A stretch of 64,000 nt of DNA from Natrialbaceae archaeon (lineage in GTDB: Archaea; Halobacteriota; Halobacteria; Halobacteriales; Natrialbaceae), in assembly GCA_003559215.1 (NCBI GenBank), contig PWMF01000022.1, positions 1 to 64,000 of the forward strand. Direction: 5' to 3'. Shown in pieces: positions 22,161 to 29,105 of this stretch; within the stretch, counting starts at the first letter, position 1; each line of letters begins with the position of its first letter. The position numbers and the translations under genes were made by a program. Under the pieces are notes generated by a model. The model was not told where the DNA came from. It saw nothing but the letters and a program-made list of their open reading frames with translations, and did not search any database.

Positions 22161-22319
22161 GGGTGTGTAACGATCGAAACTGTGTTTTACCGGTATGAGG
22201 GGTCCTCGAGCGGATTTTTCCACGATCGGCTGCGGTCGTCCGGTTGAGGGGGAAAATCCGGCGCAACATCGACGGAAATGGGAGACCTTTTAGCCCCATC
22301 GAAGCACGGTACAGACGAG

Positions 22320-23567
<1,248 letters not shown>

Positions 23568-23582
<15 letters not shown>

Positions 23583-23869
23583 AGAGCTTTTCAAGCAATC
23601 AGCTGCCGTTGGCAGCTGATGACATTGAAAAACTGGCTTTATGCCAGTTTTTCAAACAATCAGACACCGTTGGTGTCTGATGACATCGAAAAGTTGTCGC
23701 AGGCAACTTTTCGAGCGGTCAGACTGTGTCTGTGGTCTGACGACATCGAGAAACTCGCGTAAGCGAATTTCTCGTCCTCTGGTGGCTCCGCCGGCAGAAC
23801 ACCGAAAAGCTCTCGTAGAGGTTTTCGAGCAGGCGGATGCGACGGCGTCCGACGACGTCGCCGTTTTTT
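23568..23869 (+). repeat. Tandem array of alternating hairpins at the 3' end of icd
   Basis: Five units of about 60 bases, each with an A-hairpin and a B-hairpin. A: 23568-23592, 23627-23653, 23687-23713, 23747-23774, 23803-23827. B: 23598-23620, 23659-23681, 23718-23741, 23778-23798 (degenerate), 23834-23851. A-stems start GAAAA or CGAAAA/CGAGAAA and close a loop of about 3-7 bases; B1 and B2 stems start ATCAG with the 3-base loop GTT. Stem cores differ between units (GCTCT, CTGGC, GTTG, TCGC) but both arms change together, so pairing is kept. Linkers such as AAGCA and GACATT/GACATC recur. The array ends in CGACGTCG and six T (23864-23869), a plausible terminator. Confidence 0.92.
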
Positions 23870-24148
23870 ATCGAGACGCTACCTCCGCCACAGCACCCGC
23901 TCGAGGCCCGACTGTGGCGTCCTTCGACCGGATAAAAGCTTATCCCAATGGCTCGAACAAGAGTAGTTGTTAAGTACATGGTTCGGTGGGCCACAAACAA
24001 TGGAGTTGGTGGTCGAAATAGCTCCGCTCTCGGTGGTACGAAAGCGTCGCGGCGCGACGTGGGTCGAGGGAACGGGACTCCGGGACTCCCGGCCGGGTTC
24101 GTAACGACGTCCGGCAGCGAGCTTCGTTCCGGCGACGGAGGGCGGTAG
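23870..24148. other. Intergenic region upstream of the deacetylase gene
   Basis: 279 bases without a supported gene. A T/A-rich element GTTGTTAAGTACATGG near 23966 could be a promoter for the following gene with a long leader. No repeats beyond a G/C-rich dyad around 24080-24095 (CGGGACTCCGGGACTCCCG). Overlapping minus-strand frames are Arg/Ser-rich and not credible. Confidence 0.5.
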
Positions 24149-28715: not shown

Positions 28716-29105
28716 CTACTCCTGCCAGGCCGGACGCTCGCGGGGTGGGCTGAAGATGTCGACGCCCCGGACCGTCTCGTCGCCGCGGTTCTCGGCGGCG
28801 TGAGGTTGGTCGCCGGGGATCGCGTAGGAGTCGCCCGGTCCACAGACGACTTCGTCCCCGTCATCGGAAATATTCGATTTCCGATTGCTCGATGAGCTCT
28901 GCTCATCGGTGTCGCTGTAGAAGGTCAGCTCGCCCTCGTAAATGAACCCCGTCTGCTCGTGGGGGTGGCTGTGCTCCTCGACGGCTGCACCGGGTTCAAT
29001 CTCGAAGTGCTGGACGTTCATCTCCGCGGCGCCGGCCATGATCGCGAGGCGGACGCCGTCGGCTGCCTCCGAGGACTCGACGTCGGACAGGGAAACGCGT
29101 TCCAT
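28716..29105 (-). CDS. Cupin domain protein with hairpin-encoded insertion
   Basis: 129 residues of one cupin fold. Motif 1 VEEHSHPHEQTGFIYEGEL gives the His/Glu metal ligands; motif 2 GPGDSYAIPGDQPHAAENRG gives the final His. Between the beta strand TFYSDTD and DEVVCGPGDSY lies an unusual polar stretch (EQSSSSNRKSNISDDG) where haloarchaeal homologues have a tight turn. It is encoded by two DNA hairpins (28863-28908) and stays in frame, so the protein is probably still made with a longer loop. Function of the cupin is unknown. Confidence 0.8.
   Translation of the reverse strand: MERVSLSDVESSEAADGVRLAIMAGAAEMNVQHFEIEPGAAVEEHSHPHEQTGFIYEGELTFYSDTDEQSSSSNRKSNISDDGDEVVCGPGDSYAIPGDQPHAAENRGDETVRGVDIFSPPRERPAWQE
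28863..28908. repeat. In-frame hairpin pair inside the cupin gene
   Basis: Hairpin 1 at 28863-28885 (stem ATCGGAAAT/ATTTCCGAT, loop of 5) and hairpin 2 at 28890-28908 (stem CGATGAGC/GCTCATCG, loop of 3), separated by 4 bases. The 5-base then 3-base loop order equals that of the first two unit pairs in the icd array. Confidence 0.85.

Follow-up and report, generated by a model that had tools for sequence, protein, structure and literature searches.

Tandem double-hairpin units behind a haloarchaeal icd gene and their probable kinship with dispersed palindromic elements

Results

The icd locus and its five-unit array

The window, by which we mean the whole analysed stretch of 64,000 nucleotides, carries an isocitrate dehydrogenase gene (icd) whose stop codon lies inside the first of several tandem double-hairpin units. 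The gene is matched in 9 of 9 genomes of the window's genus, its own genome counted, and among the matches listed, which may leave out the window's own records, the best one with a name comes from Natronococcus amylolyticus, at 97% identity across residues 1-434. The host is a Natronococcus-like organism. Translation may truly begin at the ATG at 22320. The features of the locus are given below with their scores against two models, R1 for the icd unit and R2 for the B2-type unit.

22278..23582, plus strand: icd (isocitrate dehydrogenase), open reading frame with the C-terminal end ...NNIEKLS-TAG
23562..23620, plus strand: unit 1; A-hairpin 23566-23594 spanning the icd stop, linker AAGCA, B-hairpin 23598-23620; R1 78.4 bits (model member)
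23621..23681, plus strand: unit 2; A-hairpin 23625-23655, B-hairpin 23659-23681; encodes DIEKLA without a stop; R1 67.4 bits (model member)
23682..23741, plus strand: unit 3; A-hairpin 23686-23714, B-hairpin 23718-23741; encodes DIEKLS without a stop; R1 63.1 bits (model member)
23742..23797, plus strand: unit 4; A-hairpin 23747-23774, B2-type hairpin 23779-23797; encodes DIEKLA-stop; R2 62.4 bits (model member)
23798..23853, plus strand: unit 5, eroding; A-hairpin 23803-23827, B-hairpin about 23834-23851; encodes NTEKLS-stop; R1 42.2 bits (outside the model)
23864..23869, plus strand: T-run 3' of the array, a probable transcription terminator

A sequence-only reading of this DNA had described five units with an A- and a B-hairpin each, and five such units of 56-61 nt are present between the icd stop codon and the T-run. 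Its placement of the stop codon in the loop of the first A-hairpin is correct, and the array does end in the T-run at 23864-23869. Its description of the linkers as conserved survives in a looser form: AAGCA is exact only ahead of the B-hairpin of unit 1, and conservation elsewhere is rough. The linkers following the A-hairpins of units 2-5 are AAACA, GAGCG, TCCTC type and GAGCA, and units 1-5 begin with AACATT, GACATT, GACATC, GACATC and AACACC. The A-stems form 13 uninterrupted pairs in units 1-3 and are imperfect in units 4 and 5; the first three units of the window are clean, and the last two are eroding. Tandem Repeats Finder reported no period near 60 at the array.

Three other descriptions of these repeats were considered and rejected. 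A CRISPR array disagrees with the variation of the A-stems and with the B hairpins in the spacer position, which are palindromic and common to several genomes. The intergenic repeats of haloviruses are, in the portion of the source available, AT-rich with promoter activity (PMC7230728). An inversion of the A-hairpin in unit 2 is superfluous, its closest relative in genome G117 explaining it without one.

A second icd end is found in the window's assembly on a 3336-base contig (G000:C15, locus L031), with a re-encoded copy of its own. This icd is 93% identical to that of the window across the last 120 residues; the assembly is rated 6.25% contaminated, so the gene possibly comes from another species.

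Folding, covariation and wobble pairs

The RNA fold of positions 23562-23871 reaches -154 kcal/mol against -95.0 (sd 5.0) in 100 dinucleotide shuffles (z = -11.8), and none of the 100 shuffles folds equally well. For comparison between genomes we collected 144 distinct icd 3' ends out of 159 loci. The sample contains the second icd genes of some genomes; one end (L058) comes from a contig labelled as a Thermoplasmata MAG, and all others come from the window's order or from records named as haloarchaea. A stop-spanning hairpin with a score of at least 8 is found in 57 of the 144 ends, compared with a mean of 11.1 after the 3' arms were re-dealt between genomes. Among 68 distinct full units, none excluded for fit, 53 have A-stems with at least 9 of 10 Watson-Crick pairs (re-dealt arms: mean 16.6, maximum 24) and 60 have near-perfect B-stems (mean 9.8, maximum 19).

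The pre-specified structure is paired in 95.9% and 95.5% of cells in two unit alignments, against 32-51% in slid-structure controls. Covariation scores are 0.493 and 0.374 versus 0.177 and 0.147 in shuffled alignments, and were reached by 0 of 500 shuffles; on a weaker measure, the count of further pair types, 23 of 500 shuffles equalled the second alignment. These alignments, and models R1 and R2, are built from 29 of 35 and 25 of 33 distinct units; the 6 and 8 left out mostly have odd arm or loop lengths, with one near-duplicate. The stop-hairpin, wider wobble and re-dealt-arm tests include all ends or units. The two arms of each stem, which had been read as changing together, do so both within and between genomes, and their co-change exceeds the shuffled and re-dealt-arm controls.

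Covariation of this strength, with a score reached in none of the 500 shuffles, supports an alternative in which the array is a structured 3' untranslated region or bidirectional terminator under RNA-level selection, its hairpins at the icd stop codon ending or protecting the transcript and its units made by tandem duplication and compensatory divergence. Mismatches within the stems bear on it in both directions. The B-stems at icd keep G.T over A.C (15 vs 2 in the model alignments; 11 vs 3 in a wider set), but the A-stems show no wobble preference (12 vs 13; 30 vs 37 in the wider set). The B-stems of the dispersed copies described below have 10 GT and 11 AC. RNA-strand selection is therefore visible only in the icd B-stems, where alone G.T is preferred over A.C, and for those stems the excess favours RNA-level selection. 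The strand symmetry of mismatches in the A-stems and the dispersed B-stems also lends support to another alternative, namely that the palindromes are only a by-product of mutation, through quasi-palindrome correction by template switching together with slippage, and have neither mobility nor function.

Copies of the icd end downstream of the gene

In every A-hairpin, the 5' arm spells out the end of icd. Read as codons, the arm of unit 1 gives NIEKLS-stop, which is the real icd end, and the later units give the variants listed above. The proposed search of other haloarchaeal icd 3' regions, made with a position matrix for the last codons of the gene, revealed 71 downstream copies of at least 14 bits, spread over 56 of the 144 ends with one or more in each, and 0 in a reversed-sequence control; the matrix was trained on first ends (reversed control 0 or 1), and is therefore biased toward codon-like copies. 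Hairpin and extra copy occur together in 43 ends and are both missing in 74, with the hairpin only in 14 and the copy only in 13. At a threshold of at least 10 bits the stop codon is kept in 58 of 74 copies, and 31 have the exact [N/D]IEKL[S/A]-stop. The 71 copies differ from the genome's own icd end at 47, 22 and 164 sites of codon positions 1, 2 and 3, respectively. Second-position differences per pair amount to 0.54 among downstream copies versus 0.036 among first ends; the copies are looser than true coding ends, and thus also drift. In sequence, they look like icd ends without the full constraint. Full units number 74, of which 73 measure 52-61 nt and one 113.

Stop-spanning hairpins are not general to gene ends within the 517 called ends that we scanned (331 + 52 + 20 + 20 + 18 + 19 + 17 + 20 + 20). 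These ends come from 400 kb of one relative, the window and seven loci chosen for carrying icd, with genes called through a custom composition filter. Six of the 517 have such a hairpin at a score of at least 8, and all six are icd by sequence; in three of the seven icd-bearing loci the icd hairpin falls below 8. This restriction to icd stands against the mutational by-product. Copied 3' ends were also observed at two other genes in G105:C1 (positions 295899-299105 and 328643-330406 of the 400-kb stretch from 2950001), where 21/21 and 19/21 of the last 21 nt recur downstream; neither gene has a stop-spanning hairpin.

In Escherichia coli, the prophage e14 and phage 21 restore the end of icd on integration. 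By the same gene-end restoration logic, the downstream copies could be attB scars left by an element that carries an integrase and restores the end of icd, and an icd relative with 50-55% identity does lie at or near one end of 15 viral contigs. Against such scars, all 29 exact matches to an icd-end pattern in 41 genomes fall at icd ends or in icd arrays, plasmid and phage records contain nothing that matches the window array, and units of 52-61 nt (73 of 74) leave no room for an integrase gene. We consider this origin very remote. An icd attachment site for integrative elements in general was rejected on the same observations, with no distant copy in the 41 genomes and no phage or plasmid match to the array.

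T-tracts and termination

In the 25 nt that follow the stop, 32 of the 57 hairpin-bearing icd ends have the sequence TTTTC, against 8 of the 87 others. The codon GAA is used in 34 of the 57 hairpin ends vs 21 of the 87 ends without a hairpin, and AAA in 27 vs 11; the body of the window icd uses them for 4 of 52 Glu and 0 of 18 Lys codons, respectively. With GAA and AAA in the 5' arm, the mirrored arm holds a T-tract. For Haloferax, the accessible sections of a terminator study describe T-stretches, hairpins upstream of 503 termination sites, and T5C as the best of the terminators described, with 95% termination in a reporter (PMC7237163). Mirrored T-tracts and the action of T5C in Haloferax thus support the idea of termination, and the earlier suggestion of termination or mRNA stabilisation holds as a plausible secondary role of the array, subordinate to its reading as mobile elements. 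In the transcript the stack probably forms the 3' untranslated region of icd, where it may help termination or block 3' decay. Unlike the window units, the Haloferax terminators are not described in those sections as re-encoding a gene end (PMC7237163).

The same data weigh on the reading of the array as a 3' untranslated structure under RNA-level selection. It gains from the enrichment of GAA and AAA, from the T-tract in the mirrored arm and from the strength of T5C as a Haloferax terminator (PMC7237163, as far as that source is drawn on here), but 23 of the 57 hairpin ends use GAG, which breaks the mirrored T-tract.

Gain, loss and exchange of units

Where an icd gene has no array, the flank behind its stop codon can be aligned to array-bearing relatives. 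In four clean pairs (L245/L243, L222/L243, L028/L031, L252/L009) it aligns directly behind the last copy, with local scores of 119-228 against a shuffled maximum of 28; units have therefore been gained behind icd or lost there. The extra DNA in L028/L031 is one B-hairpin and one re-encoded icd end with its palindrome. A score of 60 was reached by 13 of 88 array-less ends, only 4 of which give clean junctions: for L014, L203 and L007 the score behind the first stop is just as high, and others align only deeper in, as if after a decayed unit. Array ends with a common flank form 11 pairs, and copy number differs in 5 of them. Two pairs with common flanks (L226/L229 and L238/L242) differ by one unit, a difference that fits gain and loss alike.

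Tandem neighbours are seldom each other's closest relatives. Arrays of two or more full units contain 28 units in all; 24 of them match a unit from another genome better than any neighbour, which argues against tandem duplication with compensatory divergence under RNA-level selection. The remaining four, identical 56-nt copies in tandem behind the icd of G105:C1 (L225), point to recent local tandem amplification and accord with it. The closest relative of unit 1 of the window, the real icd end, is a downstream copy (unit 2 of G005), and that of unit 2 of the window is the real icd end of another genus (unit 1 of G117); unit types are common to different genera. Where two genomes have the noncoding part of the unit in common, the gene itself becomes more similar from about codon -5 on (17 vs 713 pairs), and the stem alone could be the cause.

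Dispersed relatives of the unit

The double-hairpin unit is not specific to icd. Model R1 has matches away from icd in the 41 genomes searched; R2 has just five weak ones (E 0.001-0.009). The general plan is an A-hairpin, AGCA, a B-hairpin (often GTCAGAACGC nnn GCGTTCTGAC) and GAC(ATC). A pattern of the B-hairpin and its linkers gave 86 matches in 50 of 293 genomes, and its reversed control gave 0. An A-hairpin stands directly before AGCA in 83 of 90 distinct dispersed matches, though the pattern did not demand one; with shuffled upstream DNA the mean is 1.25 and the maximum 4, and at other positions upstream the count is 3-12 of 87-89. By context, 16 of the 90 lie in tnpB tails (with a TnpB match), 12 are coding, 3 are at icd and 59 are elsewhere; judged by their flanks, the last group includes further tnpB-like tails as well as intergenic families that occur repeatedly. 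In Halobacterium sp. DL1, a plasmid match falls within the 3' end of a gene annotated as an IS605 transposase and confirmed as OrfB_IS605. Phage records hold no match to the element; the four icd-end pattern matches on viral contigs have neither a palindrome nor icd nearby and were judged to be chance. Common descent of the icd and dispersed units appears probable from their common plan, linkers and B-stem, with only 3 of the 90 dispersed matches at icd.

Several individual loci deserve mention. Three tnpB tails of G046 (L335, L346, L351) hold at least two tandem double-hairpin units each, that is, icd-like arrays in the end of a transposon gene. A multi-copy intergenic repeat with T-rich stretches surrounds a double hairpin in G003 and G005 (L339, L341, L352, L357), and is common to genomes of the window's genus. 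A histidine-kinase-like gene (L344, G042:C13) encodes VEHG at four places around two double-hairpin stretches that differ from each other, as though a target sequence had been copied at each insertion.

In-frame inserts in protein genes

One dispersed copy lies in the window itself.

28860..28910, minus strand: in-frame double-hairpin insert of 51 nt in a cupin gene (28716-29105, minus strand; Cupin_2); R1 match 28863-28913, 39.9 bits, E 3.9e-8

The insert adds exactly 51 nt, or 17 codons (TDEQSSSSNRKSNISDD), behind a GAC codon of the window cupin gene (G000). It is absent from 8 of 8 other genomes of the genus, six of them read base by base and two by match coordinates. Inserts of exactly 51 nt, in frame and by comparison with relatives free of them, are found in two other genes, which from the look of their translations we take to be Hef-like (G275) and PurA-like (G095); in two relatives the in-frame form in the PurA-like gene is shorter, with match lengths of 48 and 45 nt. 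Another gene, presumably DphB-like on the same grounds (G021), is 51 nt longer than L379, L385, L386 and L387 in the same loop, a loop of varying length among relatives, so that the difference is not 51 nt against all 18 others read. Three of the coding inserts have only GAC in common at both edges, short of a clear target duplication. A coding filter was passed by 11 of 89 matches, all 11 on one strand and in one frame, an agreement partly forced by stops in some of the element's other frames; a single DphB site accounts for 4 of the 11, which leaves about eight independent in-frame sites.

Inserts of 51 nt with a common linker and frame in unrelated genes are at odds with a mere by-product of template switching and slippage, which we regard as quite improbable. 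Similar elements inside coding genes also count against the structured 3' untranslated region or terminator, which seems to us rather unlikely. The sequence-only reading's inference of selection on the RNA or DNA fold accordingly holds in part. The co-change of the arms is strong, but the A-stems show no wobble preference, and selection on an RNA fold covers neither the re-encoded icd C-terminus, which an RNA-only reading does not predict, nor the dispersal of related units, some of them as in-frame inserts in other genes.

Discussion

The reading that we favour, at a probability of about 0.6, is of a short two-palindrome insertion element (51-61 bp) that is dispersed in haloarchaeal genomes, is stacked in several copies in the array, and in its icd form carries a spare icd end. 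The stems of such an element would be free to change as long as they remain self-complementary. Where the unit sits at icd, the last codons of that gene, usually with the stop, serve as the 5' arm of its A palindrome, and with this arm doubling as the icd end the gain or loss of a unit would leave that end intact. The units would move as DNA, perhaps as folded single strands through machinery of the IS200/IS605 type; single-strand transposition of this type is a candidate in view of the dispersed copies in IS605 tnpB tails. Recombination between repeats would assist the spread, and amplification by slippage also seems to occur (G105).

Among known systems, two come closest in behaviour, both by description. 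Rickettsia palindromic elements (RPE) are short palindromic repeats that, in the parts of the literature drawn on here, lie in frame within unrelated protein genes (PMC3733652, PMC10969869). The haloarchaeal units resemble them in their insertion in coding genes (11 of 11 coding-filter matches in one frame, about eight sites, four inserts of 51 nt). The length differs, about 150 nt for RPE compared with 51 nt in the four genes and 52-61 nt in 73 of 74 icd units; in addition, the units are archaeal, consist of two separate hairpins with variable stems, and are stacked in tandem over one gene end. The PATEs of Haloquadratum have palindromes near both ends, are too short for a transposase and include a 52-bp terminal-only form, according to the available part of their description (PMC3119063). 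With PATEs and IS200/IS605 elements our units share, again by description, an association with IS605, 16 of the 90 dispersed copies lying in tnpB tails. Complete PATEs are probably larger, judging from the core deletion described there, and neither in-frame use nor copying of a gene end is described for them in that part of the source (PMC3119063). On the favoured reading the dispersed family is RPE-like but archaeal, and probably mobile.

The wRNA/sotRNA of IS200/IS605 tnpB overlaps the 3' end of tnpB in Halobacterium and has conserved hairpins, in the sections of the report cited (PMC12558985). Rfam covariance models, sotRNA included, gave no match at E<=0.05 in 15 loci, among them six tnpB tails and three icd ends; two other matches were far below their gathering scores (AgrB 25.2 vs 40; mir-598 22.1 vs 69). 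The double-hairpin elements (DHE) of Allomyces mitochondria have two adjacent hairpins, as our units do, and have been proposed to be mobile; they are fungal, mitochondrial and mostly intergenic. In the open-licence literature on haloarchaeal palindromic, tandem or in-frame elements, the titles and abstract beginnings of the matches listed do not name the element. Its habit of copying a gene end is unusual.

More tentatively, these could rank with the smallest mobile elements so far observed that bring along a replacement end for the gene they target. A palindromic unit of 51-61 bp, with a left hairpin that spells the last icd codons and the stop, could then be stacked, swapped or deleted harmlessly in many haloarchaeal genera, and its siblings would enter other housekeeping genes in frame as 17 codons. 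Strong covariation by itself is no proof of RNA function. For annotation, peptides of the SSNQNASRSDD type in haloarchaeal DphB-, PurA- and Hef-like proteins look element-encoded. If the favoured reading is true, the family would be an archaeal counterpart of in-frame palindromic elements, and icd ends with and without units in many genera would form a recurrent natural experiment on how palindromes spread, how their arms stay matched and how genes tolerate insertion.
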